Shown here piece after piece: positions 1-17,748 of a DNA stretch of 20,835 nucleotides. Location of the stretch: IMG/VR virus record IMGVR_UViG_3300017773_000193, positions 1 through 20,835 of that record; one strand, 5' to 3'. Below the pieces are notes generated by a model. It saw only the letters and a list, made by a program, of their open reading frames with translations. It made no database searches and was not told where the DNA came from. The stretch is from a virus. Within the stretch, counting starts at the first letter, position 1, and the number at the start of each line of letters is the position of its first letter. The position numbers and the translations under genes are program-made.

Positions 1-1
1 A

Positions 2-505: not shown

Positions 506-512
506 AAAGGGT

Positions 513-520
513 TATAAATA
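513..520 (+). promoter_or_regulatory. T4-type late promoter, TATAAATA, before gp25
   Basis: An exact TATAAATA octamer lies in the 20-base gap between the upstream stop and gp25. In T4 this -10-like element is read by the phage sigma factor gp55 with gp33 and the sliding clamp, with no -35 box. The expected start point, six to seven bases past the octamer, falls on or next to the gp25 ATG at 526. The promoter may therefore give an almost leaderless gp25 message, or mainly serve gp6 and later genes. Confidence 0.75.
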
Positions 521-525
521 GAAGT

Positions 526-975: not shown

Positions 976-976
976 A

Positions 977-2803
977 ATGGCGACAACAATAAAATCAACC
1001 TCATTAGACTTTGATGCAATCAAGAACAACTTAAAGACGTTCCTTGCACAGAAGGATGAATTTGCGGATTATAACTTCGAGGCGTCTGGTCTGTCAAACA
1101 TTCTGGATGTTCTTGCATATAATACACACTACAATGGATTGACCGCAAACTTTGCTTTGAACGAATCATTCCTTGGGACTGCACAACTTCGTAGTTCGTT
1201 GATTTCTCTTGCCGAAGGTATTGGTTACATTCCAGATAGTATGACATCATCTCAGGCAATTGTCAAGTTATCTTTGAATCTTTCTGGTGTTGTAGATCGT
1301 ACCGCAACTATACAGATTCCTGCTGGATATAAGTTTAACGCAACAGTTGATGAACAAGAGTTTGTTTTTCAGACACAAGAAGACATCAGTGCGGAAGACA
1401 ATGGTTCTGGTTTTTATGAATTTACTGATGCAAGTGGCAGTAAAAATATTAAAATTTTCGAAGGGACAGAGAGGGTTAAGACTTTCTTGGTGCATCGTGC
1501 AGAAGACAATGCAGTTTATATTGTTCCAGATAAGACTATAGATATAGATACTGCGATTGTTCGTGTTTATCAAACAGCATCAGGTTCAGTCTTCACACCA
1601 TACACAAGTATACTGAATGCAAACACCATCAATGAAAACTCTACGTTATACATCCTAAAAGAATCACCCAATGGTTTCTTTGAATTGTCATTTGGTAATG
1701 GTTCCACTTTGGGTAGAGCGCCCAAGACAGGTTCAAAGGTCACCCTAACTTACCTTTCAGTTAGTGGTACAGAATCAAACACTGCGAAAGTGTTTGAACC
1801 ACAATCAGGTGTCAATGTTTCTGGTAGTTCATATGATTTGACGGTATCAACAGTCGCAAAGGCGGTAGGTGGTTCGGAAAAAGAGTCGATGGAATCTATT
1901 CGTCAGACTGCACCATTTCAGTATGCATCTCAGAATCGAATGGTAACCGCTGTAGATTACTCTACCTTGGTATTGAGAAACTTTTCTACACTCATTAAGG
2001 ATATGCAATCCTTTGGTGGTGAGGATGCACTAGAACCAGAATTTGGTACAGTCTTCTTGTCGATTCTATTCAATGCGGATGTCGATGCGGTTACCGAACA
2101 GGTGACAAAAGATGCAATTCAAGACCTTGCAAAACAATTATCGGTTGCATCGTTTAGTCTTAAATTCACTGACCCTATTAAGACTTTTGTTGAGACTAGA
2201 ACATTCTTCCAGTTTAACCCAAACTTGACTACATTGTCAAGGAATACTATTCAAGATACAGTGAACAATACAATCAAAACTTATTTTGATGATAACACTG
2301 GTAAGTTCGGACAGTCCTATAGACGTTCTAATCTATTGTCATTGATTGATGATGTGAGTCCTGCTATTCTATCTTCTCGTTCAGAAACATTTGTTCAGAG
2401 ACGATTCTCACCGATACTGACTGCGATTCAAGATCATACATTAAGATATGCTGTTGAGTTGTCAGTTTTCGATGATGTTAATCACACCATAACATCAAAT
2501 CAATTTACCTTACAGAACAAAACTTGTGTCCTAAGAAACAAACTAAATAGTAATAAATTAGAAGTGTTCAATACCGAAGATAACGAGGTTCTTGTTGACA
2601 ATGTAGGTTCTTATGATGGTGATACTGTGTTTATCGTAGGTCTTCAGGTGGATAACTTTCTTGGTTCAGACACTTTCATCAAGTTAAGTGCAAAACCTGC
2701 CAATGAAAGTGCAATTACTCCATTTAGACAAGACATTCTCGAATTTGATCAGTCTAGTTCGTTCTCACGTATAGTTGAGGTTGAATCTGGAGTGACTAAC
2801 TAA
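977..2803 (+). CDS. 6: Baseplate wedge subunit, gp6 (baseplate J-like)
   Basis: This 608-residue protein is close to T4 gp6 (660 residues), which dimerises to form the inner ring of the baseplate wedges with gp25 and gp53. The N-terminal 40-95 region carries the family signature: ILDVLAYNTHYNGL, an aliphatic helix with NESFLGTAQLRSSL, then GIGYIPDS. Middle residues about 290-330 (GGSEKESMESIRQTAPF and RMVTAVDY) match the baseplate J core found in gp6 and P2 gpJ. The remainder is beta-rich with an Asn-rich segment. ATG 977 follows the gp25 stop by one base, with a weak AAGG at 963-966. The stop TAA overlaps the next ATG by one base (TAATG), suggesting translational coupling. Confidence 0.93.
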   Translation: MATTIKSTSLDFDAIKNNLKTFLAQKDEFADYNFEASGLSNILDVLAYNTHYNGLTANFALNESFLGTAQLRSSLISLAEGIGYIPDSMTSSQAIVKLSLNLSGVVDRTATIQIPAGYKFNATVDEQEFVFQTQEDISAEDNGSGFYEFTDASGSKNIKIFEGTERVKTFLVHRAEDNAVYIVPDKTIDIDTAIVRVYQTASGSVFTPYTSILNANTINENSTLYILKESPNGFFELSFGNGSTLGRAPKTGSKVTLTYLSVSGTESNTAKVFEPQSGVNVSGSSYDLTVSTVAKAVGGSEKESMESIRQTAPFQYASQNRMVTAVDYSTLVLRNFSTLIKDMQSFGGEDALEPEFGTVFLSILFNADVDAVTEQVTKDAIQDLAKQLSVASFSLKFTDPIKTFVETRTFFQFNPNLTTLSRNTIQDTVNNTIKTYFDDNTGKFGQSYRRSNLLSLIDDVSPAILSSRSETFVQRRFSPILTAIQDHTLRYAVELSVFDDVNHTITSNQFTLQNKTCVLRNKLNSNKLEVFNTEDNEVLVDNVGSYDGDTVFIVGLQVDNFLGSDTFIKLSAKPANESAITPFRQDILEFDQSSSFSRIVEVESGVTN

Positions 2804-3816
2804 TGAGTAATAGAAACGATGTCACTTTAACTGATCTCGATCGAAGGGAACTCTCCTTTACTGATCATAAAGTTGAGGATATCCTTCCAGAGTTCTTTAG
2901 AACCGAATATCCTAAACTCATCTCGTTATTGAAAGAATACTATGAGTTTGAAGGGAGTGATGATTCGCCCGCAAAACTCATACATGAATTATTCTATAGT
3001 AGAGACATCACACAAACAGACATAGACCTTCTATCATATATTGAAGATGAACTGTTGTTGGGACAATCCTACTTTGAGGGATTCAAAGACAAACGTGCGG
3101 CTGCGAAATACTCTAATCAGTTATATCGTTCAAAAGGAACTAAGTTCTCTATCGAACAGTTCTTCCGAACCTTCTTTGATGTTGACCCTGATGTCGAATA
3201 TACTAAAAACCAAGTCTTCAGGGTTGGAGAAACTGGTTCTGAAATTGGATTTAACTCACAGAAATATCTGACCAATGATAAATTGTTTCAGACATTTGCA
3301 ATTCTGATTAAAACAGATATATCTCAATCCGAGTGGATAGAACCTTATAAACTATTTGCCCATCCTGCTGGTATGTTTGTGGGTTCGGAAGTTCAGATAA
3401 TGTCGGTCGTAGAAGACACGGTAACTGCACCACAAGTTATCGATGAACCACCACCACCTTTTGCAGTACATTCATCTGCAAGTTTTGGGGATACAGGAGT
3501 TACAGATTTGACTGCTATTGTTGATGACCTATATACTGATTCAGATGGTGTTTATAGTCGAATCAATGCGGAGTTCACCACACTTGAAGACTTCTCTGTA
3601 GAACAGATAACAACAATTGATGAACAGTATTCGTCTCTACGTGAGGCACAGAGTGCGAGTTCACCCACATTTGATGATTCAGATCAGTCAGGAACCACCA
3701 ATGGTATGGACTTGAGTAACGACTTTAGTTTTGAAACACTTGATCAACAGAAACATCAATGGTGGAGTGCGGATTCAGACCAATATGTAAAGAGTTTAAT
3801 ATTAGACAATACCTAA
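2803..3816 (+). CDS. Virion structural protein in the gp7 position (marine T4-like family)
   Basis: This 337-residue protein has a conserved-looking N-terminal domain (about residues 20-205): FFRTEYPKLISLLKEYYEF, a helix with the DITQTDIDLLSYIEDELL motif, KGTKFSIEQFFRTFF and a final AHPAGMFVGSEV. I recall this pattern from uncharacterised structural proteins of cyanophages and other marine T4-like phages. The last 130 residues are acidic, low in complexity and rich in Asp, Ser and Thr, with many DSD and DDS motifs. It starts by a one-base overlap with gp6. In T4 that slot holds gp7 (1,032 residues, wedge), but length and sequence give no direct support for calling it gp7. A baseplate-associated role is likely from context; the biochemical role is unknown. 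Confidence 0.8.
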   Translation: MSNRNDVTLTDLDRRELSFTDHKVEDILPEFFRTEYPKLISLLKEYYEFEGSDDSPAKLIHELFYSRDITQTDIDLLSYIEDELLLGQSYFEGFKDKRAAAKYSNQLYRSKGTKFSIEQFFRTFFDVDPDVEYTKNQVFRVGETGSEIGFNSQKYLTNDKLFQTFAILIKTDISQSEWIEPYKLFAHPAGMFVGSEVQIMSVVEDTVTAPQVIDEPPPPFAVHSSASFGDTGVTDLTAIVDDLYTDSDGVYSRINAEFTTLEDFSVEQITTIDEQYSSLREAQSASSPTFDDSDQSGTTNGMDLSNDFSFETLDQQKHQWWSADSDQYVKSLILDNT

Positions 3817-3830
3817 AAAGTTTAATATTA
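3793..3830 (+). repeat. 12-bp direct repeat flanking the end of the gp7-position gene
   Basis: AGTTTAATATTA occurs at 3793-3804, inside the last codons of the upstream gene, and again at 3819-3830, just past its stop, 26 bases apart. The second copy leads into a seven-codon open frame (ATG 3830 to TAG 3851-3853) that overlaps the late promoter. It looks like a small duplication at the gene end; no function is evident. Confidence 0.6.
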
Positions 3831-3844
3831 TGAAGTATAAACCT

Positions 3845-3852
3845 TATAAATA
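3845..3852 (+). promoter_or_regulatory. T4-type late promoter, TATAAATA, before the 3877 gene
   Basis: An exact TATAAATA lies in the 60-base gap. The flank TAAACC before the T of TTATAAATA is shared with the promoter at 17705-17712. A start point near 3858 would leave a leader of about 18 bases without a strong ribosome site. No -35 box or terminator hairpin is visible in the gap. Confidence 0.8.
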
Positions 3853-3876
3853 GTTAGATAACAAACGGACTATAAA

Positions 3877-4902
3877 ATGTCAAGACAGATACTAAACAGA
3901 GGAACAACAGCGAACGATGGTACAGGTGATACCTTACGTGTTGCTGCCCAAAAAATAAACGAAAACTTTCAAGAAATCTATGCAAACTTTGGGGGAGATA
4001 ACGTTAGCCCAATCGTAACATTGACTGATGTTGGTGCAATTTTTGAAGGTTCTTCTCCCGATGCATACGAGACCAATCTTGTTGCGGCAGAACCTACTGC
4101 GGATAATACAGTAACAATTCCTAATTCATCAGGTACTCTAGTCTTAGACACTACTACTCAGACATTGACTAATAAGACTCTTACTGCACCAGTTCTTTCT
4201 TCGGTTCAAATTGATGACACTTCGGGTGACCATCAGTACATCATCGGAGTAAGTGAACTTGCGGCAGACAGGACTGCGACACTACCCTTACTGGGTGGTA
4301 GTGATACGTTTGTATTTGCAAACCACACCGAGACTTTATCTAACAAAACATTAGTGACACCAGTAATTAAAACCCCAACTCTTGGTGGTGCCGATGGTGG
4401 TGCATCGTTACTTGATAGTGCAAGTAATGAATATCTTACATTTAATAATGTTTCAAGTGCGATTAACCACGTAAATATTTCAAACTCTGCGACAGGTAAC
4501 AACCCATCTATAGATGTGGGAGGTGGGGATACAAATATTGGTCTTGAACTATCTGCTAAAGGCACAGGTGGTATTGAGATTAAGAACAAATTAGTTCTAG
4601 AGAAAGGAACAGATGTTTCTGCGACTGAGGCGGTTGACCTTAATGAACCATTGACAGTATTCAACTCAGGTAGTTTGATTTTACCCACTCTCGCTGATGG
4701 TACAACCCAAGGTGAGATGAAGACTTTCGTGAATATTGCAGCGGGTGAAGCGAGATTAACTACAAGTTCACCATCAAATATTTATGGTGTGGGTGCGAAT
4801 GGTCATGTTTCGTTTAGTCAAGGTGATGGATGTATTCTTGTATGGAACGATACAGCAAGTAAATGGTTTTTCGTATCTAATAACGGAACAACAATAGGAT
4901 AA
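3877..4902 (+). CDS. Short tail fibre / baseplate-attached protein with gp9/gp10-type N-terminus
   Basis: The first 40 residues (NRGTTANDGTGDTLRVAAQ, then KINENFQEIYANFG) match the attachment module at the start of T4 gp9 and gp10, which reads 'DDGTGDYLRKGGIKINENF' in gp10. This module joins trimeric peripheral proteins to the baseplate. The rest of the 341 residues is beta-rich, Thr/Ser/Asn-rich fibre sequence with the common phage-fibre motifs TLTNKTLTAPV (about residues 90-105) and TLSNKTLVTPV (about 150-165). The C-terminus (GDGCILVWNDTASKWFFVSNNG) is a typical fibre cap. It is probably trimeric. ATG 3877 follows its own late promoter. Whether it replaces gp9 or gp10 or is an extra fibre cannot be decided from sequence alone. 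Confidence 0.8.
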   Translation: MSRQILNRGTTANDGTGDTLRVAAQKINENFQEIYANFGGDNVSPIVTLTDVGAIFEGSSPDAYETNLVAAEPTADNTVTIPNSSGTLVLDTTTQTLTNKTLTAPVLSSVQIDDTSGDHQYIIGVSELAADRTATLPLLGGSDTFVFANHTETLSNKTLVTPVIKTPTLGGADGGASLLDSASNEYLTFNNVSSAINHVNISNSATGNNPSIDVGGGDTNIGLELSAKGTGGIEIKNKLVLEKGTDVSATEAVDLNEPLTVFNSGSLILPTLADGTTQGEMKTFVNIAAGEARLTTSSPSNIYGVGANGHVSFSQGDGCILVWNDTASKWFFVSNNGTTIG

Positions 4903-4910
4903 TATAGAAA

Positions 4911-6269
4911 ATGGCGATTATAACAAACCCAATTAAAAAGCAAGTAATCCAAGACCTGAAGGATGATATAGATTCTTCAGGTACGCACTACTATGCGGTA
5001 ATTGGTCGTTCAGAAGATTGGAACGATTCGGACATTGCACCGACACCACTAAACACTGCACGAGAGGAAAGAGACTTCCGTCTTGGAATGCAATCTGCCA
5101 AAAAGATAGTTGACCTTTCGTTTGTTGTTCCTCGTTACAACTGGTCATCTGGTTCAATCTATTCTGCATATGACGATGCACAAGTTGGTTATCCTACTCA
5201 AACTTACTACGTTATGAACGACAACAACCAAGTTTATTTGTGTATCCAACAGGGTAGAAACTCTGCTGGTCAACCACAGGTATCAACTGTGCAACCGACA
5301 GGTGGTACAGAGGGTACTCCATTTGATACTGCGGATGGTTATATCTGGAAGTTCTTGTACTCTATCGGTGCATTGGATGCCACTAAGTTTGTTTCTGCAA
5401 ATTACATTCCTTCTAAACTTGTAACTTTTACTGACTCGGATTCACCTGCTGCTGACATCGAACAACAGGTAGTACAGAACAATGCTATCGTTGGTCAGAT
5501 TGTCGGTTACCACGTTGACTCTGGTGGTGCTGGTTACTCATCATCACCTACCTTAACTATTAGGGGTAATGGAACAAAGGCAAAGGCAGATGCAACAATA
5601 TCTGGTGGACAAGTAGTAGATGTCAAGTTGATTGACAGTTCTGGTTCTTACACAATGGGTTCTGGATATACCTTTGGTGAAGTTCTTGTAACAGGTGGTG
5701 GTTCACCCACGAAACCCGCTAAGATTCGTCCAATCATTGGTAGTGTCCTTGGATTTGGTGCAGACCCAAGAGATGACTTACGTTCTACCGCAATCATGTT
5801 GAACAGTAAACCAGAAGGTGTTGAAGGTAATGACTTCATTATTGGCAATGACTTCCGACAGGTCGGGTTATTGAAGAATCCTTTAGATTCCATTGGTACT
5901 TCGCCATTCACTGCCGACACCGCTTTGTGTCTTAAAAGAATTAACTTCAGTAGTGTGACCCAAGGATTCACCGCTGACAATAGAATTGTAGGTGGTACTA
6001 CAGGTGTTGAGGCGTTTATTGATAAAGTTGACTCTGATGATATATGGTATCACCAAACAACAGAAACTGGTTTTGGTAACTTCCAAGCTGGTGAGTCGAT
6101 CTCAGAAACCAATGGTAATGGTGTCGGTGTACTGAATCCTTCAATCTCACCTTATGTAAATCCAGAGATAGATACCTCTACTGGGGAAGTCCTATATATT
6201 GATAACCGTGCTTCTGTTACCCGTAGTTCAGGTCAGACCGAAGATATTAAACTCGTAATACAAATTTAA
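4911..6269 (+). CDS. 8: Baseplate wedge subunit, gp8
   Basis: This 452-residue protein resembles T4 gp8 (334 residues), a dimeric wedge protein that connects gp7 and gp10. The N-terminal part has YAVIGRSEDW, matching 'FITFGRSEPW' of T4, then PRYNW (T4 'PRRDW'), a YVMNDNNQVYLCIQ strand and DGYIWKFLYSI (T4 'DGYVWEYLFEI'). The C-terminus STGEVLYIDNRASV followed by QTEDIKLVIQ matches T4 'SGEMIYMENR' and 'QTEEINILF'. The extra 120 residues lie mostly in the middle (about 200-400), Gly/Asp-rich and beta-like, with a repeat-like GGAGYSSSPTLTI segment. ATG 4911 is the natural start, eight bases after the preceding stop, without a strong Shine-Dalgarno sequence. Confidence 0.93.
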   Translation: MAIITNPIKKQVIQDLKDDIDSSGTHYYAVIGRSEDWNDSDIAPTPLNTAREERDFRLGMQSAKKIVDLSFVVPRYNWSSGSIYSAYDDAQVGYPTQTYYVMNDNNQVYLCIQQGRNSAGQPQVSTVQPTGGTEGTPFDTADGYIWKFLYSIGALDATKFVSANYIPSKLVTFTDSDSPAADIEQQVVQNNAIVGQIVGYHVDSGGAGYSSSPTLTIRGNGTKAKADATISGGQVVDVKLIDSSGSYTMGSGYTFGEVLVTGGGSPTKPAKIRPIIGSVLGFGADPRDDLRSTAIMLNSKPEGVEGNDFIIGNDFRQVGLLKNPLDSIGTSPFTADTALCLKRINFSSVTQGFTADNRIVGGTTGVEAFIDKVDSDDIWYHQTTETGFGNFQAGESISETNGNGVGVLNPSISPYVNPEIDTSTGEVLYIDNRASVTRSSGQTEDIKLVIQI

Positions 6270-6280
6270 GGTAATAACCG

Positions 6281-9200
6281 ATGCCAAAGCCATTTACATC
6301 AAACGTATTTTCATCGACATACAAGGATGATTTCAAGGATAGTGATAACTATCATCGAATCCTCTTTAATAGTGGTCGTGCATTGCAGGCAAGGGAACTT
6401 ACCCAACTGCAAACAATTATTCAGGAAGAGATCGGTCGTTTTGGTCGAAACATATTCAAGGAAGGTGCCGCAGTAAACCCAGGCGGGCCAACCTGTACGA
6501 ATGATTACGAGTTCATTAAACTAAACGTATTGACACATCCTCTACCAAGTGACCCACAGACACTAGTTGGAACAACTCTTACTGGGCCGAACATCGGTGG
6601 TGGTAGTGGTATTCAGGTACGAGTACTAGAATTTGTTGCTGCAGAAAACAGTGACCCAGCAACTCTTTATGTTCAGTATATCAATACTTCATCGGGGGAT
6701 TCTGGCGAAGAACCTATCCGATTATCTGCTGGTGATGTAATGACCAATACAGGTGCATCAGTCACACTACAAGTTGCCAATGCAGTCGGTACTGATTTAC
6801 CTGTTGGTCGTGGTTGTATGATTGCGAACTCAGAGGGTGACTTCTTTACTCGTGGTCACTTTGTATTTGCAAAGGGTCAGTCAATCATTCTTTCTAAATA
6901 TAATAGATATGCAACTGCGACTGTTGGTTTCAAAGTAACCGAAGACATCGTAACTGTTGCGGATACTGAAGACCTATATGATAACCAAGGGGCGACTCCA
7001 AACTTATCTTCGCCTGGCGGAGATCGTTATCGTATCAAACTCTCGTTGATAAATAAAGCAGACATTACGGAAGACGAAAACTTTGTTTATTATTGTGACG
7101 TAGTAGATGGTGTGGTTGTTGACCAAGTAACTGGTACAGATGATTATAACAAAATTAACGATGTCATGGCAACAAGGACTGAAGAAGAGTCTGGTAATTA
7201 TATTGTTGACCCATTTACTGTAGATTTCGCAGATTCTGGTGATAATTTTATTGCCACTGTATCTACTGGTGTTGCATATGTGAATGGTTATCGTGGTGAT
7301 ACCGAGAAACCTACTCCACTTACAATTGCAAAACCTCGTACATCTCAAATAATTCCGAATGAAGTATCTGGTATCTCATATGGTCAGTACTTCATCTGTA
7401 GTAATCTGAAAGGTCTACTTAATGTAGGGACTTTCGCTACACAAAATCTATCAACAAGTACAGATGACCCAAGTGGTAGTGTGATTGGTACTGCACGAGT
7501 TCGTTTCGTTGAAGAAGATGGTTCAAACTTCCGAGTTTACTTGTTCGACATCAAGATGAACTCTGGTCAGTCTTTGCGTAATGTTAAGACTGTTGGTACT
7601 AACTCAACTAATCGTGCGGTTCTTGTTTTAGAGAATAGTAAGGCAGTAATTAAAGAATCACAAAAAGTTAATTTGATATATCCATTACCTCAGGCACGAC
7701 CCAAGTCACTTACTGACTTCGACTTTGAGGTACAACGTATCGTAACTGGTACCCCAGTAAGTACTTCTTTAACATTGTCTGCATTGACAGTTGCGGGTGA
7801 GACATGGACAAATACTTCTGATTGGATTGTTACTCGTAATGACACTGGTGCGGTGGTTACTGGTGCAGCGTTTACTGCTGTTGGTAGTCAATCGATGACA
7901 GTTTCAAGTCTCCCTAGTGGTCAAGCAGTCACCATATATGCAAGAGTAAACAAAGGTTCTCCTGCAATTAGACAGAAAACTCTTGAACTTGATGCAACTG
8001 TTGCTGCTGCTGTTCAAACTGTTGATGGTGTTAAGTTTGTTGACATGAACGCTTCGGATATCTATGAAGTAGAGTCTATCAAACAAACCGATTCAGATGG
8101 TGTAGACCTTTCTCACTTGTTTACTGTGGACAATGGTCAACGTGCTGGTTTTTATGGAAATGGTCGTTTAGTTCTAGAAACTGATGCAACCGCTCCAACA
8201 GGTAATGTGTTTTGTAGATTCAAACACTTTACTCATGGTACTGGTGACTTCTTTGCTGTTAACTCATATATTGGTCATGTAAACTACGAAGACATCCCAG
8301 ACTTCGAAGTCAATCAACGTACCTCGGTCAATTTAAGAGACGTGATAGATTTTCGTTCTACCCACAATACAAGTGATACCTTTGTTGGAAGTGGTGTGAA
8401 TGAACTACCCCAGAATGGTGATGTATTCCAAGCAGATGTTGAATACTATCTACCTCGTGCAGATAAGATAGTTGTAACCACACAAGGTGAAGTTAAGAAC
8501 CTTGTTGGTGAGGCTGGTTTCGGTTCACAAGTTCCTGATACTCCAGAGAACACTCTTGCACTATTTAACTTAGAACTTAATGCATATGGTCTGGATGATG
8601 AAGATGTTGTGATGACACCGATCAAAGCAAAACGATTCACCATGGCAGACATTTCTGAATTAGAGAAAAGAGTTGACAAACTAGAAGAAGTCACTTCTTT
8701 AAGTTTACTTGAACTAGATACATCTTCTCAATTAGTATTGGATGCGGATGGTTCACCAAGAACTAAGTCTGGTTTCTTTGTAGATAACTTTACAGACCGA
8801 AGTTTCTCGGATGGAGACAACCCAGAATATCGTGCTGCAATTGACCCATCAGAAAAACTATTGAGTGTTGGTACAGAAGAAGATGATGTGGTTTTGGCGT
8901 ATGATTCAGATTTGTCAACCAACACTATAATGAAGGGTGACTCTATCTATCTGAAGTATTCTGAGAAAGAAGGTATAGTTCAGAACCTTGTATCTACTGC
9001 AATGAATGTTAACCCATTCGCAGTTATTACTGGTGAGGGTCATCTAAAGTTATCTCCCGCTAGAGACAATTGGTTTGAAACAAAATACGCTCCTGCAAAC
9101 GTTATTAATCAGACTGCAACCGAAACTCTTGCAGATTTGAATCTTGGTGATCGTGTCGTAAGTACACAAGAACATCGAATGAACAGAAGCGCTCGTTGGA

Positions 9201-9463
9201 GATGGAGACTAGGACAAGTTCATATTCCAGTGCCAGGATTCGGTACTATAGGTGGTACTGCTAGTGAGGCCACAGGCGGTTTCAGAAGAAGAGGTTGGAA
9301 CTGGGGTGGTTGGAGACGTGCGGCCGCATGGAATTGGGTAGGTGTACCTAATAACGCAAGGGTAACCGAAGTGGGTGCGACTGATCGAAGTTCGGGAGGT
9401 TTTGACCTCACTCGATCGTTCTCACAACGTGTTGTTGTTGGTCAAAGAACTGTACGTAAATAG
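6281..9463 (+). CDS. DUF4815-type tail protein, N-terminal 1,060 residues ending at an in-frame amber codon
   Basis: The N-terminal 100 residues carry the DUF4815 pattern of marine T4-like phages: NVFSSTYKDDF, RILFNSGRALQARELTQLQ, EEIGRFGRNIFKEGAAV. The middle is beta-rich and virion-like. A short coiled coil lies near residues 787-812 (ISELEKRVDKLEEV). Near 970-1,021 come an Arg/Trp-rich stretch (RWRWRLGQVHIPVPG) and a Trp/Gly-rich stretch (GWNWGGWRRAAAWNWVG). The frame stops at TAG 9461-9463, directly after GQRTVRK, but continues in the same frame to 11527 with sequence I recall as part of the same polypeptide in relatives. AAGG at 6269-6272 precedes ATG 6281 and gp8 ends just upstream. It probably sits in the baseplate periphery or fibre network. 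If TAG is read through, the product is 1,748 residues; otherwise a 1,060-residue short form is made. Confidence 0.88.
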   Translation: MPKPFTSNVFSSTYKDDFKDSDNYHRILFNSGRALQARELTQLQTIIQEEIGRFGRNIFKEGAAVNPGGPTCTNDYEFIKLNVLTHPLPSDPQTLVGTTLTGPNIGGGSGIQVRVLEFVAAENSDPATLYVQYINTSSGDSGEEPIRLSAGDVMTNTGASVTLQVANAVGTDLPVGRGCMIANSEGDFFTRGHFVFAKGQSIILSKYNRYATATVGFKVTEDIVTVADTEDLYDNQGATPNLSSPGGDRYRIKLSLINKADITEDENFVYYCDVVDGVVVDQVTGTDDYNKINDVMATRTEEESGNYIVDPFTVDFADSGDNFIATVSTGVAYVNGYRGDTEKPTPLTIAKPRTSQIIPNEVSGISYGQYFICSNLKGLLNVGTFATQNLSTSTDDPSGSVIGTARVRFVEEDGSNFRVYLFDIKMNSGQSLRNVKTVGTNSTNRAVLVLENSKAVIKESQKVNLIYPLPQARPKSLTDFDFEVQRIVTGTPVSTSLTLSALTVAGETWTNTSDWIVTRNDTGAVVTGAAFTAVGSQSMTVSSLPSGQAVTIYARVNKGSPAIRQKTLELDATVAAAVQTVDGVKFVDMNASDIYEVESIKQTDSDGVDLSHLFTVDNGQRAGFYGNGRLVLETDATAPTGNVFCRFKHFTHGTGDFFAVNSYIGHVNYEDIPDFEVNQRTSVNLRDVIDFRSTHNTSDTFVGSGVNELPQNGDVFQADVEYYLPRADKIVVTTQGEVKNLVGEAGFGSQVPDTPENTLALFNLELNAYGLDDEDVVMTPIKAKRFTMADISELEKRVDKLEEVTSLSLLELDTSSQLVLDADGSPRTKSGFFVDNFTDRSFSDGDNPEYRAAIDPSEKLLSVGTEEDDVVLAYDSDLSTNTIMKGDSIYLKYSEKEGIVQNLVSTAMNVNPFAVITGEGHLKLSPARDNWFETKYAPANVINQTATETLADLNLGDRVVSTQEHRMNRSARWRWRLGQVHIPVPGFGTIGGTASEATGGFRRRGWNWGGWRRAAAWNWVGVPNNARVTEVGATDRSSGGFDLTRSFSQRVVVGQRTVRK

Positions 9464-9481
9464 ATTGCGGATAGAACTGTA
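9446..9481 (+). repeat. 9-bp direct repeat, 27-bp period, enclosing the amber codon
   Basis: AGAACTGTA occurs at 9446-9454 and again at 9473-9481. The period is 27 bases, exactly nine codons, and both copies encode Arg-Thr-Val in the main frame. TAG 9461-9463 lies between them. Deleting one repeat unit would remove the TAG and join GQRTV to SLTFIPF in frame. Confidence 0.8.
9461..9463 (+). other. In-frame TAG (amber) inside the long DUF4815 tail gene
   Basis: The TAG is 3,180 bases (1,060 codons) from ATG 6281. The same frame then stays open from 9464 to TAA 11525-11527 with normal protein sequence beginning in the first codon after the stop. The codon before is AAA and the next bases are ATT. 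CAG, AAG, GAG, TTG and TCG are each one substitution away. No ribosome site and no ATG in frame is found between the TAG and about 10086. Confidence 0.9.
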
Positions 9482-11527
9482 TCATTAACATTCATACCAT
9501 TTATACGTTCACGTAAAGTATTCTTCAAGGCAGAGGGTCTACGACCAAATACTCGTTACTTCCCATTCTTTGATGGTAAAAAAGTAGATCAATTCTGTAG
9601 AGAAGAGACATCTTTCAAACGTTATGGTAGAAAGTCGAACGCAGCTGATGTAGCGATTGCGAGAAGATATAGAAATAGTACTTCACACCCACAAGGTAGT
9701 ACTATCTTAGAATCGGATGTGAAGGGTGAGATTGTCGGTTCGTTCTTTATTCCTTCTAGAAAGGGTTTGCGTTTCCGTGCTGGTGTACGTGAGTTCAAAC
9801 TTCTTGACATTAGTAAGAATGATGACAATGCTGCACTATCACGTGCAACATTCAACTATACCGCACAGGGTACTCTGGATACTAGACAGAAGACTATTAC
9901 TTCTACTCGTATCACTACAGTCCAAACAAGACGTTGGACAGAGACTACTCGTGTTCGATTTACTGACCCACTTGCACAGTCTTTCCAAGTTACAAACCCA
10001 AGTGGTATCTATGTAACTAAAGTACAGTGTTATTTCAAGAGTAAGGATACCAGTAATGTTCCTATTCAATTACAGATTCGACCAATGGTTAATGGTGCGC
10101 CAAGTGCGACTGACATCCATTCGCAATCTATTGTATTCTTACCACCGAGTTCAGTGAACTTACCTTCGGCACAAACACAGTCTGCGGTAGTTGCTGCACC
10201 TACTACGTTTGAGTTCGATGAACCAATCTTCTTGAACCCACAGACAGAATATGCGATTGTACTTCTTGCAGAATCTACTGAGTATGAGGCGTATGTTGGT
10301 GAAACATATGCATTCGAGTTAGGTTCAACCGAGAAGAGAATCTCTCGTCAACCATCTATGGGTTCATTGTTTAAGTCACAGAATGGTACGACTTGGGAAC
10401 CAGACCAAACTAAAGATATGGCGTTCAAAATCTTCACTGCTGACTTTGTAAGTTCTGGTAATGCGGTATTTGAGAACCGAGATGTTGATTTAGATTTACT
10501 TGATGAAAACCCACTATTCATGACTTCTGGTTCATCAACAGTGACTGTTCTTGGTGTTCATCATGGTTTCCATGTTGGTGATAAAGTTAATATGTCTGGT
10601 CTTGTTGATGCTACCACATACAATGGTGTACTTGGTTCAAATATTAATGGTGAAAGAACTATTACTGCGGTAGATGGATTTGCTTTCCAATTCGCTGCAG
10701 GGTCTAATGCGACTTCTTCGGGTAGATTCGGGGGTGACGATGTATTATTTGACAAACAAATTATATTTGATACCTGTATACCTCAGTTCACAACTTTGAT
10801 GCCCGATGACACTTCGTTGACATATAATGCGAAATTCACTACTGGTAAATCACTTGCCTCACCTTCTGGTTCACAAGTTAAATATGGGAAAGATGGTTCG
10901 TTCAGTAGTGACTTGAGTATCGGTGATGTAAATAGATTTGTTGCACCAAGAATGATTGCAAACCCATCAAACGAGACTGCTCAGTTAGGTTCGGGGAATC
11001 GTTCTTGTACATTCAAGATTGATATGTCAACAGTACGTTCGGATGTAAGTCCTGTTATTGATGCACAGAATGCATCCCTAACAACCGAAGCGAACTTAAT
11101 TGATAATCAGTCATCTTCTGTTGCAAACGGATTTAATGTTCCAATTAACTATGTTGCAGAAACGAATGCATTTGGTGGTTCTTCACTCGCAAAACACGTT
11201 ACTAGTGTAGGAGAACTCGAAGAACCTGCTGTTGGTCTGAAGGTGATGCTTGCCGCAATGAGACCTTCTGGTAGTAGTTTTGATTTGTATTGGAGAGTTG
11301 CGAATGGTGACCAAAACATCTTTGATGTGGATTGGACGTTAGAAACGGTAGAGGATGCAGTTGCACCAGACGAAAATAATTTCCGAGAGTATCGTTACCT
11401 AATTGGTGGTGATGATGGTACGGTTGACCCATTCACATCATATCAGTTTAAGATTGTAATGAATGGTAACAATTCAGCTAAACCACCTGTGTTTCGTGAT
11501 TTCCGTTCAATTGCATTGGCAGTATAA
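9464..11527 (+). CDS. C-terminal continuation of the DUF4815-type tail protein (after the amber codon)
   Basis: There are 687 sense codons in the same frame as 6281-9463, ending at TAA. The first residues (RTVSLTFIPFIRSRKVFF, then GLRPNTRYFPFFDG) form a conserved-type segment that cannot be a fresh N-terminus: its codons run up to the TAG. Next come GSFFIPSRKGLRFRAG and FKLLDIS, then residues about 165-330 with DPLAQSFQVTNPSGIYVTKV and VPIQLQIRPM, and LNPQTEYAIVLL, typical of long marine T4-like tail proteins. The only early start codon is GTG at 9719, 85 codons in, which cuts through the domain and has no Shine-Dalgarno. The part is therefore made by readthrough of TAG, or the gene is broken in this copy. 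The sequence shows no further stop or frameshift. It overlaps the next gene by one base (TAATG). Confidence 0.82.
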   Translation: MADRTVSLTFIPFIRSRKVFFKAEGLRPNTRYFPFFDGKKVDQFCREETSFKRYGRKSNAADVAIARRYRNSTSHPQGSTILESDVKGEIVGSFFIPSRKGLRFRAGVREFKLLDISKNDDNAALSRATFNYTAQGTLDTRQKTITSTRITTVQTRRWTETTRVRFTDPLAQSFQVTNPSGIYVTKVQCYFKSKDTSNVPIQLQIRPMVNGAPSATDIHSQSIVFLPPSSVNLPSAQTQSAVVAAPTTFEFDEPIFLNPQTEYAIVLLAESTEYEAYVGETYAFELGSTEKRISRQPSMGSLFKSQNGTTWEPDQTKDMAFKIFTADFVSSGNAVFENRDVDLDLLDENPLFMTSGSSTVTVLGVHHGFHVGDKVNMSGLVDATTYNGVLGSNINGERTITAVDGFAFQFAAGSNATSSGRFGGDDVLFDKQIIFDTCIPQFTTLMPDDTSLTYNAKFTTGKSLASPSGSQVKYGKDGSFSSDLSIGDVNRFVAPRMIANPSNETAQLGSGNRSCTFKIDMSTVRSDVSPVIDAQNASLTTEANLIDNQSSSVANGFNVPINYVAETNAFGGSSLAKHVTSVGELEEPAVGLKVMLAAMRPSGSSFDLYWRVANGDQNIFDVDWTLETVEDAVAPDENNFREYRYLIGGDDGTVDPFTSYQFKIVMNGNNSAKPPVFRDFRSIALAV

Positions 11528-11736
11528 TGAGTAAAAGATACATAATGGTGGAAGGTCACAGTGGTTTAGCAAGAGACCCAAATAGTGGGGCAATTGTTAA
11601 TATAAATAAAGATGAGATACAAAAGGCACGTGCAGCGAAAGCAAAGAGACAGAAACAAAAATCAGAGTTCCAAGAGTTGCGACAAGATGTCGATGAACTA
11701 AAGGTACTTCTCAATAAACTAGTAGAGAAACTATAA
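11527..11736 (+). CDS. Small coiled-coil protein of marine T4-like tail loci
   Basis: This 69-residue protein starts on a TAATG overlap with the DUF4815 gene and ends immediately before the next ATG. The first 28 residues (MVEGHSGLARDPNSGAIVN) are followed by a Lys/Gln/Glu-rich helix from about residue 29, with a heptad-like end (ELRQDVDELKVLLNKLVEKL). I recall similar small proteins beside DUF4815 genes in cyanophages, with no known role. The coil suggests an oligomeric linker or an assembly helper for the long tail protein or the next fibre. Position and coupling give real support for expression; function is inferred only. Confidence 0.8.
   Translation: MSKRYIMVEGHSGLARDPNSGAIVNINKDEIQKARAAKAKRQKQKSEFQELRQDVDELKVLLNKLVEKL
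11601..11608 (+). promoter_or_regulatory. Possible late promoter inside the 69-residue gene
   Basis: An exact TATAAATA lies within the coding sequence (codons AAT ATA AAT AAA). It would start a transcript near 11614, about 120 bases before the NELD-repeat fibre at 11737. It may be a chance match in AT-rich sequence, though it has the correct strand and a reasonable place for the fibre genes. Confidence 0.35.
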
Positions 11737-12831
11737 ATGGCGACTAATAAACCCACAATCACAGATATTCAGGATACCTTCACTACGTTGGTAACCAATC
11801 AAAACACCATATCATTGGATTTGGGTGCGACTGGTCGTCTGAATACCAATGAAGACTCTAGTGCAGTTGCTGCTATCAACGAACTTGAATTAGGGATTCG
11901 TGGCACCTCTGACAATCTAGTCGCAACTGACCTTGCAGACTTCACTTCCGACAACATTGTTTCTGCGTTACACGAACTTGACAGCGACCTTCACGGTGCT
12001 GGTGGTGGTAATGCCAAGACAGACTTGACTACCAATGCGGATGACATCGTATCAGGTATCAATGAACTTGAAGTTGCAATTAGAGGAACATCAAACAATC
12101 TGGCAGCTGGCCAACTGCGTACTACTAAGACACATCTTGTAGGTGCGGTCAACGAACTAGATTCTGACATTGGTGCGAGACCACATACTACTCTAACCAC
12201 TGATGCGAAAACTCTTACAGGTGCAGTCAACGAACTTGATGCAGAGTTAGGTACAATCACTGATACTGCAATGGGTACTACTGCAACAACTGTATCAGGT
12301 GCGATTGCAGAACTTGATTCTGATAGAGATAGACAGATAACCTACACAGGTATTGATGGAACTGCATTAACCACAACCGCAACAACACTTACTACTGCTG
12401 TCAATGAATTGGATGCAGAGATTGGTGCCGCAGTTCTTGTTACTTCTGCGACTACTCTTCGTGGTGCGATAAACGAATTACACATTGAAATGGGTGCAAT
12501 TCCAGACTCAAATGGTTCAGGAAATCTCAGGTCAGACCGCATAGGTCAATCTATTAGACTACTAGATAGTGCTGTAGGTAATCTTGCACAACTAAATACT
12601 GATGGTTCCATATCAAGTAGAACAAGTCTTGTAACTGTAGTCAATTCACTCGCAGATGACATTTCTCTTTTAGACTCTGATGCTGGTGTACGTGACAATC
12701 GTTTGGGAAGTTTAAGTAATCTTACCGCAGGATTTGTAGGTACAGAACGAGATAACTTTGTAAATGCACTTAACGCTCTAAGAGCAGATGTCCCACTTAT
12801 ATACGATGTAAATGGAACTCAACTAAACTAA
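11737..12831 (+). CDS. NELD-repeat tail fibre protein
   Basis: This 364-residue protein consists mainly of a degenerate repeat of about 20-35 residues, each ending in a helix such as AAINELELGIRG, SALHELDSDLHG, GAVNELDSDIGA, GAVNELDAELGT, TAVNELDAEIGA or GAINELHIEMGA. At least eight clear copies lie between residues about 40 and 250, with weaker ones after (NSLADDISLLDSDAG, NALNALRADV). The linkers are Thr/Ala/Asp-rich (TTTATTL type). Similar 'VGAINEL' repeats are common in phage tail fibres and suggest a trimeric coiled or mixed shaft. The last residues (PLIYDVNGTQLN) may be a cap. ATG 11737 immediately follows the upstream TAA. It is probably an elongated part of the baseplate fibre set; receptor or partner unknown. 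Confidence 0.8.
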   Translation: MATNKPTITDIQDTFTTLVTNQNTISLDLGATGRLNTNEDSSAVAAINELELGIRGTSDNLVATDLADFTSDNIVSALHELDSDLHGAGGGNAKTDLTTNADDIVSGINELEVAIRGTSNNLAAGQLRTTKTHLVGAVNELDSDIGARPHTTLTTDAKTLTGAVNELDAELGTITDTAMGTTATTVSGAIAELDSDRDRQITYTGIDGTALTTTATTLTTAVNELDAEIGAAVLVTSATTLRGAINELHIEMGAIPDSNGSGNLRSDRIGQSIRLLDSAVGNLAQLNTDGSISSRTSLVTVVNSLADDISLLDSDAGVRDNRLGSLSNLTAGFVGTERDNFVNALNALRADVPLIYDVNGTQLN

Positions 12832-12847
12832 TCGGAGTATAGACACG

Positions 12848-15793
12848 ATGACCGCCGGTGTTCCATTAAAATTAAAAGATAGTGACCATCCTGTAGAACT
12901 TCAGAAGTTTGATACTACTGGAGGGGGTTCTTCTGACCAGAACTATCTTGCATATCAAGCGAGTCTATATCTAGCAGACCAAGATTCTAGTAATACTGGT
13001 AGAATTGCTACGGAATATTTGGGAAGTGTTGATAGTGGCGAAACTAGTGTTGAATATAATACTCGAATTGTTGGTACTTATGTTAATACCTTTTTTGATT
13101 CTGCGGTAGGTACTTCCGCTGGAACTGGCGGATTATACACTGTCAGCACTACAGGTACAACCCTATTACAACATGGTCACTATGAATTTAATGATGACAG
13201 TGATGTACGTAGACTTATCTATTTGGATTCTGATGCTAGTATAGGTTATACTCAGACTGATGGTGGTGTAGATACAGTTATACCCCAACTTAAAATCAAG
13301 GAGATGGATTCGGATACTGAAAATCGTTTGGTTGACAGAATCAATTCTTACATCTATACAAACGATTATCCAGGCACATATAAATTATCTTCTTCCAACT
13401 CAATTACTGATTATAGTGTTGAAAAACAGATTTTTACTGATACTAGGACAGATAATACTACTGTTCCATACTTTCTTCACAAAAGAACCACCATAACCGC
13501 ACCAACAGTTGTGCGACCATTTGCGATAAAACGATCTAATGGTGATAGTGGTGACTATCAAGGTCTTCAGGAAATGACAGACCGACAAATTCAACAAAGT
13601 CTGGGTTGTGCATCGAAGAACCGAACTGCTACACAGGACGGAGGTGTTGGTTCATACGCACTTTTAAGTTCTGCACAGGGTACTCCCGCCTCAACTGGAA
13701 AGTCTGGTACATGGGTCTCAAAAGGTACTGCAACAGACACCCGACAAGTGATCGAAGATGCAACCTATACTCGTAGTAGGTCTTCAACGTATTTGATTCA
13801 AAGAAATTCTACCTACTCACAAACATATAGTAGAGATAGAGCTTCTACATTCACACAAGACTTTATAGGTAACTACAGTCGTAATTTTCAGGACACTTAT
13901 ACCAAGACTCGTACAAGTGTCTACTCGCCAGGATTTGTTGGTGACTTTACTGGTAACTACACCAGAGAAAGAGATCAAAACTTTACTCGAACTTCTACGA
14001 GAACCTCTACGTACACTAGAGATAGGAATGCAGAACGTGATACTAATTTCTCACGCACACAACTGTATGCTGGTAACTTCGCTAGAAACTTTATTGGTGA
14101 CTATGTGGGTACTGCTACAGTATCAATAAATGCGGGTCAAAAACCAACAGCACTAGATGGTTTTGTATCTGGAACACATACTGGGGTTGTTGACGCTGAT
14201 GTATATCGCAGATACACTCTTCCAAATGGTTCTATAGCTAGAGTTTATTACAAATTTTTCGTAGGTTGGTACACCCCTAGCTCAAATATTCTTTGGTGTT
14301 CCTCAATAGGTATACTAACTACAGATTCTGCTAATGGCACAGTACAAAGTTGGAATGGATTATACGCTGACTCAGTTGCTGCCATGGCCGGCCCAGTGGC
14401 TCAGATGTTCGCAGGCGATGCAGGCTCGGCCGCTTGGAGTGCGGGTGGTTTCACCCAATCATCATGGGCGGCTAATATTGCTCATTCTTCACTTGTCAAC
14501 AGCGGCTCAGCTGTTTCGAAAAATCTAGGTAGTCAAACAGATTCTAAGGACTATCTAGGTAACTATAGTCGTGGATTCGCTCGAAACTTTAGTAGAACGG
14601 CTGACTATACTGGCGATTTCCACGGTGATTTCCAAGGTAACTATTCAAGAACTCTTTATTTCAAAGGGAACTATACTGGTGACTTTACTGGTAACTACAC
14701 CCGACAAAGTAGTAGAACAAGAGAAGATAGTTTTGCTCGTAACTTTGCTGGTGATTTCCAAGGTAACTATCTTAGAACCAGTACAAGAAATTTTACAAGA
14801 GAGAGGAATACACAGTTTCAGAGAACACGTGAATCTACTTATGCTGGTGATTTTACTGGAAACTATGCCCGTGACTATCATGGCGACTTTACTGGTGACT
14901 ATACTGGTACTGCTGTCGTTACTCTGGAATACGATGAAGCTGTAACTAGTTTGAGTAGTGGCACCACCTCCCACCCAAGAAATTTTAGCGGTCTAACACC
15001 AACCCAATACAGTGGTGGCATCATTGGTCAAGGCCCAAATGGTGCTTATGTAAGTGCTGGTTATAGGACAGGTTATGTTGACAGTGGTCAACGTCTGATG
15101 AGATTCTATTTAGTGGTATACTTTAACGATTTGGGCACCTATTACCCAGGCGGCCAACCACAATTCTGGTCTTTCATATACATGGCAGAAAATAGTAATT
15201 CTGGGGCGGTATCAAGCAATTGGGTTGCAGAAGGAGCTAACCACGGTGGTTTTTCAGGTGCAATTGATACGGCATGGGCAAATCTTCAGAGTACTACAGG
15301 TTATGGTTTTACCTCCGGCGGCAACTATGCCTACTGGACAGATAGGCAGACACAAACCATTGGTAGTGGTACAGCTGATTACACTCGTGATTCTAATCGA
15401 CAATCCAATAGAGACTCCCAATTAGATTCCAACAGGACTAGTACAAGAGAATTTGAAGGAAACTATACTGGTGACTTTACTGGTAATTACTCTAGAAACT
15501 TTACTGGTAATTACCTTCGTGATTCTAATCGAACAAGAACATCCAGTTACATTGGCGCACAGGAATTCGCAAGAGACTTTTCTGGTAACTTTGTTGGTAA
15601 CTATGCTCGTGGTTTCACACGCACTTCTAGTAGAACAATCGGTGCAAACTACATAGGTAACTATACTGGTAATTATCAGAGGAGTTTCTTGGGTAATTAT
15701 GCCAGAACATTTGCTGGCAACTATGTTGGTACGGAGATAGGAAGTAGTAACACAAATATTGAGACCTACACTCTCTATGTAAGAACTGCATAA
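12848..15793 (+). CDS. Large rod-like virion protein with Gly-Asn-Tyr repeats and two inserted domains
   Basis: This 981-residue protein has a good ribosome site (GGAG 12834-12837) before ATG 12848. Residues 1-300 are a non-repetitive head; NYLAYQASLYLADQDSSNTG and MTAGVPLKLKDSDHPVEL read like N-termini of marine T4-like virion proteins. From about residue 305 the chain is dominated by short Arg/Tyr/Phe/Gly/Asn repeats of the type F-x-G-N-Y-x-R (for example FTGNYTR, FIGNYSR, FQGNYSR) and Ser/Thr-Arg runs. Two non-repeat domains interrupt them, about residues 420-566 and 686-842, each entered through 'GDY-x-GTA'. A last copy of the boundary (NYVGTEIG) leads to the short C-terminus ETYTLYVRTA. 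It probably forms an extended fibre or whisker. I know no function for the repeat. Confidence 0.82.
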   Translation: MTAGVPLKLKDSDHPVELQKFDTTGGGSSDQNYLAYQASLYLADQDSSNTGRIATEYLGSVDSGETSVEYNTRIVGTYVNTFFDSAVGTSAGTGGLYTVSTTGTTLLQHGHYEFNDDSDVRRLIYLDSDASIGYTQTDGGVDTVIPQLKIKEMDSDTENRLVDRINSYIYTNDYPGTYKLSSSNSITDYSVEKQIFTDTRTDNTTVPYFLHKRTTITAPTVVRPFAIKRSNGDSGDYQGLQEMTDRQIQQSLGCASKNRTATQDGGVGSYALLSSAQGTPASTGKSGTWVSKGTATDTRQVIEDATYTRSRSSTYLIQRNSTYSQTYSRDRASTFTQDFIGNYSRNFQDTYTKTRTSVYSPGFVGDFTGNYTRERDQNFTRTSTRTSTYTRDRNAERDTNFSRTQLYAGNFARNFIGDYVGTATVSINAGQKPTALDGFVSGTHTGVVDADVYRRYTLPNGSIARVYYKFFVGWYTPSSNILWCSSIGILTTDSANGTVQSWNGLYADSVAAMAGPVAQMFAGDAGSAAWSAGGFTQSSWAANIAHSSLVNSGSAVSKNLGSQTDSKDYLGNYSRGFARNFSRTADYTGDFHGDFQGNYSRTLYFKGNYTGDFTGNYTRQSSRTREDSFARNFAGDFQGNYLRTSTRNFTRERNTQFQRTRESTYAGDFTGNYARDYHGDFTGDYTGTAVVTLEYDEAVTSLSSGTTSHPRNFSGLTPTQYSGGIIGQGPNGAYVSAGYRTGYVDSGQRLMRFYLVVYFNDLGTYYPGGQPQFWSFIYMAENSNSGAVSSNWVAEGANHGGFSGAIDTAWANLQSTTGYGFTSGGNYAYWTDRQTQTIGSGTADYTRDSNRQSNRDSQLDSNRTSTREFEGNYTGDFTGNYSRNFTGNYLRDSNRTRTSSYIGAQEFARDFSGNFVGNYARGFTRTSSRTIGANYIGNYTGNYQRSFLGNYARTFAGNYVGTEIGSSNTNIETYTLYVRTA
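13770..14104 (+). repeat. Gly-Asn-Tyr / Ser-Thr-Arg repeat block 1
   Basis: In-frame short repeats encode RSRSSTYL, TFTQDFIGNYSRNF, GDFTGNYTRERD and FTRTSTRTSTYTRDR. DNA copies such as GGTGACTTTACTGGTAACTA recur in the later blocks. The period is irregular (mostly 4-10 residues), unlike a simple tandem repeat. Confidence 0.75.
14105..14545 (+). other. Inserted globular domain 1 in the rod protein
   Basis: About 147 residues without the G-N-Y repeat, from VGTATVSINAG to LGSQTDSKDY. It is rich in Trp, Ala and Gly (SWNGLYADSVAAMAGP, WSAGGFTQSSWAANIAH). Bases about 14380-14480 are visibly GC-richer (GCCATGGCCGGCCCAGTGGC) than the flanks, and the codons used there differ from the neighbours. It looks like a swapped-in domain, a possible receptor- or glycan-binding tip. 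Confidence 0.6.
14546..14903 (+). repeat. Gly-Asn-Tyr / Ser-Thr-Arg repeat block 2
   Basis: This block encodes LGNYSRGFARNFSR, GDFHGDFQGNYSR, GNYTGDFTGNYTRQSSR, AGDFQGNYLR and AGDFTGNYARDYHGDFTGDY. The motif density is higher than in block 1, and several 15-20 base stretches are shared with blocks 1 and 3. Confidence 0.75.
14904..15372 (+). other. Inserted globular domain 2 in the rod protein
   Basis: About 157 residues from TGTAVVTLEYDEAV to QTIGSGTADYT. It enters by the same boundary as domain 1 (GDYTGTAVV against GDYVGTATV) and has similar length and aromatic/Gly/Ala content (FYLVVYFND, SSNWVAEGANHGGFSG, DTAWANLQSTTGYGF). A distant duplication of domain 1 is possible: both carry a strand-rich first half and an Ala/Trp-rich helix near the end. 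No catalytic motif is evident. Confidence 0.55.
15373..15746 (+). repeat. Gly-Asn-Tyr / Ser-Thr-Arg repeat block 3
   Basis: This block encodes SNRQSNRDSQLDSNRTSTREF, EGNYTGDFTGNYSRNFTGNYLR, SGNFVGNYARGFTRTSSR, IGNYTGNYQRSFLGNYARTF and AGNYVGTE. It has the same repeat type as blocks 1 and 2 and runs almost to the end of the protein. Confidence 0.75.
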
Positions 15794-15833
15794 AAAAACA
15801 TATATATAATTGTGAATGAATTAGGAGACGATA

Positions 15834-16283
15834 ATGTCTAGAACATGGTTAGATAATGCATTTTGGGAAACCCCTCGAAAACAAACTCTAAATGCGATTA
15901 GTGAAGAGGTCATTGGAAACCAGACCAAACGCCAAGTGTACAAACTCAACAAGTTAAATGATGATGGAACAGAAAACGAAATGTTCCAAGAGGTCGTTGC
16001 ATTTCTTGGTATGGAAAAGATTGACGCTTCTAGTAAGAGAAGACTTGAATCTAAACAAGAAGAAGCAGAGGTTGAAAAACAGAACAAACTGGAAGAGGAA
16101 CGTGCAAAGAAACTAGAGAAACTCTTTGCATACAAATTAGAAACCTTCGAAATTCCAGAAATCAAAGCATCTAAAAACCGTTTACTGAAATCTAAACTAA
16201 GACGTTCGAAGTCTGTTCCCGAAGTGAATCTTTACGCTATTTTAATTATACAGGACGCTATGAAAAATGAAGGAACTGACTAA
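15834..16283 (+). CDS. Conserved coiled-coil protein of unknown function in the fibre locus
   Basis: This 149-residue protein has a strong ribosome site, AGGAG at 15823-15827, seven bases before ATG 15834. The N-terminus (MSRTWLDNAFWETPRKQ) is followed by a Glu/Lys-rich helix (about residues 60-105: KRRLESKQEEAEVEKQNKLEEERAKK region), then KLETFEIPEIK, a basic patch (SKNRLLKSKLRRSKSVPEVN) and a helix LYAILIIQDAM. I recall similar sequences in cyanophages, annotated hypothetical. An assembly-helper or scaffold role for neighbouring fibres is possible but unsupported by motif. Its 3' end overlaps the next gene by 17 bases. The gap before it (15794-15833) is AT-rich (TATATATAAT at 15801-15810) and might hold a weak promoter. 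Confidence 0.8.
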   Translation: MSRTWLDNAFWETPRKQTLNAISEEVIGNQTKRQVYKLNKLNDDGTENEMFQEVVAFLGMEKIDASSKRRLESKQEEAEVEKQNKLEEERAKKLEKLFAYKLETFEIPEIKASKNRLLKSKLRRSKSVPEVNLYAILIIQDAMKNEGTD

Positions 16284-17010
16284 AGGTTTTGTAATTGTTG
16301 CATCTAAAAATCCTAACTTCTACATTTACGCCTGCAACCTAATAGAATCAATCCGAGACTGGTATCCTGATGCCAACATAACACTTTTCACCGAAGAAAG
16401 GTTTATTGATCATCGTGCAGATGAAGCGGATAATGTTGAAATATGTGACAATCATTATCGTGCAAAACTAACTGGCATGGCCCAAACACCTTACGATATT
16501 ACCATGTATGTCGATGCAGACATGGAATGTGAACACGAAGACATCGCAAAGGTCTGGGATGAGATGAAAGACTATGATATGGTCTTTCACGAATTGAGCA
16601 AGGAACGTGAAAAGTTTTATGCAATTCGGGAATTTAATCATGAGAATAAAACCGAGAAGTACAGGTTATGTGGGGGTGTGTGTCTCTATCGTAGTTCCAA
16701 TCCATTAGTAAAAGAGTTCATGGAGGATTGGGATGATTTGTATCGTAGACAACACTCAGGACAATGGAGACCCGAAGGATTCGATGATAATTTGTGGAAC
16801 GACCACCTAAAATACTTTGATCAAACTACACTTTGGTGGTTGACCGAGAAGGTGGAAAAGTATAAAGACTTAAAGATTGGAATCTTTGACGATGATATTC
16901 GGTGGAATTACTTCACACAATACGATTATTGTGGTTTACCGAAACCAGAAAAACCCCCAATATTGAGACACTATTCTGGATGTTTGAAAAAGGATAAGTT
17001 GATTGTGTAA
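16267..17010 (+). CDS. Putative GT-A-fold glycosyltransferase (GT8-like)
   Basis: This 247-residue protein has the layout of a small nucleotide-sugar transferase. Strand 1 is GFVIVASKNPNFYIYACNLIESI (about 7-29), then DANITLFTEE (35-44). The metal-binding DxD is D83-A-D85 in MYVDADMEC, LCGGVCLYRSS (134-144) is the acceptor-side loop, and H235-Y-S-G238-C-L-K241 near the end matches the GT8 HxxGxxK pattern. The donor and acceptor cannot be read from sequence. ATG 16267 overlaps the upstream gene end by 17 bases; AGGA at 16252-16255 is the likely ribosome site. The stop overlaps the next gene by one base (TAATG), pairing it with the oxygenase-like gene. It might decorate phage fibres, host surface sugars or DNA; position favours the first, by inference. 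Confidence 0.8.
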   Translation: MKELTKGFVIVASKNPNFYIYACNLIESIRDWYPDANITLFTEERFIDHRADEADNVEICDNHYRAKLTGMAQTPYDITMYVDADMECEHEDIAKVWDEMKDYDMVFHELSKEREKFYAIREFNHENKTEKYRLCGGVCLYRSSNPLVKEFMEDWDDLYRRQHSGQWRPEGFDDNLWNDHLKYFDQTTLWWLTEKVEKYKDLKIGIFDDDIRWNYFTQYDYCGLPKPEKPPILRHYSGCLKKDKLIV

Positions 17011-17684
17011 TGAAAAATATTCCTATAAGAAATAAGGAAGTTATTGAACTTCTTGAAGAAGTAAAAAAATACTATGATGATCGTGAACATTTAACAACAC
17101 TTTTACGTGTTAATGGAAGTGAAAAGGATGCGGATTGGTTTACAGGTGATGAGTATCGTGACCAAATTATAAACATGGATACCGACCATGATGGGTATCC
17201 AGAATCTACTCACTCAATATCACTAAAAAACACTCACTTAGACACTAGTGGTAAGACCAAAAATGATACTGAAGTAGCAAAACTTATAGAACGATATGGT
17301 AAACTCAATGAAAAATTGTGTACCATATTCTCAACAAGAAATTGTGCATTATTTACAATGTATCCGCCAGGTGGGTATCTCTCGTGGCATAACAATGCAA
17401 ATGCGTGTGCATATAACCTAATCTTCTCTTGGTCAGAAACAGGAGATGGGTACTTCAAATATGTTGATGGTAAGACTGGTGAAGATGTTGTTATGCAAGA
17501 TGTTCAGGGTTGGCAGTGTAAAGCAGGGTACTTTGGTTCGTATGATGAACCTTGGGATAAACGAGTCTATCATGCCGCAAAAACTAATTGTTGGAGAATA
17601 ACAGTTTCTTTTATATTCGACCAGAGTGATATGTCTATGGGTTTACAAGATGAAATCATAGAAGAAATAATGTCAGATTACTAA
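17010..17684 (+). CDS. 2-oxoglutarate/Fe(II)-dependent oxygenase-like protein
   Basis: This 224-residue protein's second half looks like a double-stranded beta-helix oxygenase: MYPPGGYLSWHNNANACAYNLIF (residues about 117-139), GDGYFKYVD, and WQCKAGYFGSYDEPWDKRVYHAAKTNCWRITVSFIF to about 203. Expected ligands are H127, the third residue of the HxD triad, H188 and R196 (2-oxoglutarate contact, eight residues after H188). The acidic ligand is replaced: the triad reads H127-N128-N129. Related cyanophage oxygenases I recall also carry an HTN-type motif here. It may hydroxylate a residue of a virion or host protein, or be inactive in iron binding. It starts on the TAATG overlap with the glycosyltransferase, so the two are co-expressed. 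N-terminal residues 1-110 are helical and charged. Confidence 0.75.
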   Translation: MKNIPIRNKEVIELLEEVKKYYDDREHLTTLLRVNGSEKDADWFTGDEYRDQIINMDTDHDGYPESTHSISLKNTHLDTSGKTKNDTEVAKLIERYGKLNEKLCTIFSTRNCALFTMYPPGGYLSWHNNANACAYNLIFSWSETGDGYFKYVDGKTGEDVVMQDVQGWQCKAGYFGSYDEPWDKRVYHAAKTNCWRITVSFIFDQSDMSMGLQDEIIEEIMSDY

Positions 17685-17704
17685 ATTGTTGGACTTCTAA
17701 ACCT

Positions 17705-17712
17705 TATAAATA
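17705..17712 (+). promoter_or_regulatory. T4-type late promoter, TATAAATA, before the 17749 gene
   Basis: An exact TATAAATA with the TAAACC upstream flank seen at 3845-3852. The expected start near 17718 leaves a leader of about 30 bases with AAAGG at 17720-17724. A three-codon frame, ATG 17736, GGT, ATT, TAG 17745-17747, ends one base before the real ATG 17749. Confidence 0.8.
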
Positions 17713-17748
17713 AACACATAAAGGTCTTATTTAACATGGGTATTTAGA

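Follow-up and report, generated by a model that had tools for sequence, protein, structure and literature searches.

Locus organization and reading frame

The window, that is, the entire stretch of DNA analyzed here, comprises 20,835 bases and covers its source record completely. It contains a large open reading frame (6281–9463) that encodes 1060 amino acids and ends with TAG. The initial annotation noticed that this TAG, codon 1061 at 9461–9463, is in the same frame as the ATG at 6281 and that the frame remains open to 11527; the sequence confirms both points, with 687 codons following the TAG before the TAA at 11525–11527. The features of the locus are as follows.

6281–9460, plus strand: VrlC/DUF4815 gene, N-terminal 1060 codons (Pfam DUF4815, E 5e-61; phrog_358; 82–90% identity to the closest IMG/VR loci)
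9461–9463, plus strand: TAG, codon 1061, where the column is variable (close relatives have Val, Ile, Leu, Glu, Gln or Lys, never a stop)
9464–11527, plus strand: VrlC/DUF4815 gene, C-terminal 687 codons and TAA (alignment of relatives; conserved columns intact)
9074–9493, plus strand: low-confidence stretch holding the TAG, residues 932–1071, a probable linker (AlphaFold2 model, pLDDT <50)
From about residue 1072, plus strand: C-terminal part, better predicted and beta-rich (structure model)

Because the 687 amino acids after the TAG align with 22 IMG/VR loci (55–85% identity, nearly all full-length alignments) and, at lower identity, with 1,353 annotated phage records, this part of the frame is, on the evidence of sequence comparison, genuine coding sequence and not a chance open frame. 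Separate translation of the C-terminal part was considered as well. The claim that no usable start lies between 9464 and 9718 holds, in that this interval contains no in-frame ATG, GTG or TTG; the earliest in-frame start is GTG 9719, which has no evident ribosome-binding site, and re-initiation after the TAG was rejected on these grounds.

The two halves form one gene, which encodes the large baseplate protein VrlC/DUF4815. The half preceding the TAG matches PF16075 (DUF4815) with an E value of 5e-61 and 207 bits (cut-off, 30), and in phrog_358, the part before the TAG matches positions 577–1134 and the part after it positions 1193–1605. A structure has been solved for a related protein, the DUF4815 component of the phi812 baseplate (Staphylococcus phage; PDB 9euf). 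VrlC is the name of the DUF4815 baseplate protein in pelagimyophages and cyanomyophages; the genomes compared all share five proteins, of which VrlC is one, and in a baseplate with two layers it is thought to take the place of T4 gp7 (PMC7029224). As expected, the genes upstream of the VrlC gene in the window match T4-like wedge and gp8 families. The region immediately before the TAG (9290–9460) contains abundant Gly, Trp and Arg, and its length differs from relative to relative; several of their contigs stop in or near it.

Downstream of the baseplate gene, a 981-codon gene (12848–15793) is much less conserved than its neighbors (53% in G001, which is among the nearest relatives with a complete VrlC gene, and 28–37% over parts in some other relatives). 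Pelagimyophages have a host recognition cluster, and this gene seems to fit the description of that cluster (PMC7029224).

The TAG column in relatives and conservation of the downstream part

Among the 80 loci of relatives that include the start of the gene (68 of these distinct), there is not a single internal stop in 121,545 codons, and every relative that could be aligned at the TAG column has a sense codon there; compared with the relatives examined, the stop is therefore unique to this record. The end of the gene is reached in 51 of the 80 loci, and 3 of these 51 terminate with TAG. The residue at the TAG column in close relatives is mostly Val, with Ile, Leu, Glu, Gln and Lys also represented, and codon 1061 tolerates several residues. 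The conservation that the initial annotation placed right after the TAG is thus found in the downstream sequence, whereas the TAG codon itself occupies a variable column. As for the suggested change from CAG to TAG, the homologs do not single it out, Gln being present in only one close-relative record. The closest relative, L023 (90% identity over residues 1–1033), ends 28 codons before the TAG and thus gives no indication of the sense codon that preceded it.

Exact DNA searches of IMG/VR for near-identical contigs did not turn up the sequence surrounding the TAG a second time, although near-identical records may be kept out of such searches, and no relatives emerged when contigs from bacterial and archaeal genomes were scanned. 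Some phages produce hits over two annotated features, which was considered as a candidate natural split of the gene at the TAG; this was rejected, the second feature being only the small next gene.

Defining conserved columns as those kept in ≥90% of the remaining members in the family comparison, 4 of 277 such columns are changed in the window after the TAG against 16 of 396 before it, and none of the 4 changes has a negative BLOSUM62 score. The Ka/Ks ratio, with G001 as the reference, is 0.20 before the TAG and 0.26 after it, both well below 1. No decay is apparent downstream of the TAG, and therefore the stop is very recent, or an error, or steadily read through; the undecayed sequence speaks against a long-broken gene.

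Possible readthrough of the TAG

Under leaky or programmed readthrough, the majority of ribosomes would terminate after residue 1060, while some would add an amino acid at the TAG and go on to complete a protein of 1,748 residues, so that the baseplate would contain a short and a long protein, as the initial annotation proposed for a tail protein. Such an arrangement agrees with the persistent conservation of the part after the TAG and with the acceptance of several residues at codon 1061; furthermore, the base after the TAG is A, which favors suppression in E. coli. The location of the codon is suggestive, too. In an AlphaFold2 model of residues 900–1420, the TAG corresponds to model residue 162 and falls within model residues 33–172, for which the pLDDT is below 50; this stretch (residues 932–1071) is probably a linker, immediately preceding the beta-rich C-terminal part, and an arrangement with two products would require the stop to fall at a linker. 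The overall confidence of the model is low, with a pLDDT of only 55, so the linker assignment is tentative, and because the stretch covers about 8% of the protein, a stop within it is no strong evidence. Programmed readthrough would be expected to leave the stop codon conserved, but none of the aligned relatives has it. Neither is there a stimulating RNA structure 3' of the TAG, a feature of some although not all known readthrough cases: folding of the downstream RNA is no better than that of shuffled sequence (z between −0.9 and +0.9). In addition, the phage relatives inspected annotate a single full-length gene. With the stop not conserved and no RNA structure downstream, we regard leaky or programmed readthrough as improbable. 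A narrower version, in which a real, fixed amber codon would split the baseplate protein at the linker and be read through at a set rate, yielding two forms in this one lineage, has a slim chance of being correct.

Possible recoding of TAG by a suppressor tRNA

Alternatively, TAG might be decoded by a suppressor tRNA, encoded by the phage or by the host, with late genes recoded as in crAss-like phages, in which incipient cases of TAG recoding are known (PMC7886860). The usage of stop codons in the window could be taken to point in this direction: at all 14 gene ends seen (1–18117), the stop is TAA, and TAG terminates nothing in this block. However, TAA likewise ends all 14 orthologs in the two closest relatives, which nevertheless carry a sense codon at the site; since they share it, the exclusive use of TAA is a trait of the block in this clade and no sign of recoding. 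Moreover, in G002, a relative 83% identical in the VrlC gene, TAG ends the major head, large terminase, prohead, head closure and baseplate hub genes, and hence this clade does use TAG as a terminator of late genes. The genes of the window contain a single in-frame TAG, in contrast to the many in code 15 phages. No tRNA genes were detected in the 20.8 kb window, which is part of an incomplete genome, and the relatives searched for a tRNA with the CTA anticodon, as the initial annotation recommended, have Gly and Arg tRNAs only, including the 149 kb relative G006, with just two tRNAs, both Arg. A lone TAG, the lack of a CTA tRNA in the sequences searched and the use of TAG at the ends of G002 late genes all disfavor suppressor decoding, which we consider extremely unlikely.

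As a separate observation on G002, downstream of the TAG of its major head gene (L114:230-360) come a G+C-rich inverted repeat and a T run, beside a tRNA-Gly gene; the repeat and T run look like an intrinsic terminator.

A probable isolated nonsense codon

The TAG very probably represents a lone nonsense codon, present in one record, in an otherwise intact core baseplate gene of a T4-like phage, and attributable to recent mutation or to error, the two taken jointly. We infer a recent origin or an error from the absence of the stop in relatives combined with the undecayed state of the downstream part; the same two observations uphold point mutation and assembly error among the four causes listed in the initial annotation, at the expense of suppressor decoding and programmed readthrough. 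The codon could have arisen by a very recent mutation in this phage, or in a minority of its population, or else as a base error in the metagenome-derived contig, and it would have no conserved regulatory role. Under normal translation, the protein would stop at residue 1060 and lose the C-terminal 687 residues, which are kept across the family. Because VrlC is a core component thought to stand in for T4 gp7, the loss of the last third should be costly. A survey of in-frame stops in prokaryotic genes found these to be mostly short-lived (PMC7918605). Two considerations weigh against an isolated nonsense codon, namely, that constant readthrough would likewise leave the sequence after the TAG undecayed, and that the TAG falls just ahead of a folded part, within a probable linker, which is where one might expect a programmed stop.

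A variant of the nonsense-codon explanation, which overlaps with it, is damage to more than one base, for example, two compensating small indels, natural or introduced in assembly, that would place one or two codons at the TAG out of the true frame. The window and G001 disagree at 6 of the 9 bases in positions 9461–9469, a divergence shown by 1.5% of the codon triples of the gene; Ala replaces a nearly invariant Gly at the second codon after the TAG; and the contigs of relatives end in this neighborhood somewhat often, with 7 of 29 ends within residues 1013–1102. This clustering is weak and was noticed after the fact, and simple substitutions account for the pattern equally well; a scan for one-base shifts gave no signal at the site, although it has little power on so short a stretch. 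We consider local damage of this kind rather unlikely.

Unless backed by relatives or reads, a single stop in a single record of an uncultured phage gives no ground for postulating recoding or readthrough. Were the TAG real and tolerated, it would point to amber suppression in the host.

Comparison with known systems

The extension of the Q-beta coat protein is produced by stop-codon readthrough of a phage structural protein, at UGA. The present case resembles it in having an open, conserved protein frame after the stop but differs in that the stop is not conserved in relatives, that no readthrough signal was found and that the codon is TAG. With the amber-recoded late genes of crAss-like phages (genetic code 15), it shares a TAG inside a late structural gene; here, however, there is a lone TAG where those genes have many, the searches turned up no suppressor tRNA, and a close relative of the window phage ends late genes with TAG. 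A further parallel is offered by the transient stops seen in frame in prokaryotic genes that are under purifying selection (PMC7918605): here, too, a single stop sits in a conserved gene and is short-lived by comparison with relatives. The difference is that, with one record of an uncultured phage, error and mutation are indistinguishable. Compared with the VrlC/DUF4815 proteins of pelagimyophages and cyanomyophages (phrog_358, PF16075) and with the phi812 protein (9euf), the product of the window gene has the same length, domain order and neighborhood, with T4 gp8-like and wedge genes upstream, and is similar in sequence over both halves; the window gene alone has one internal TAG.
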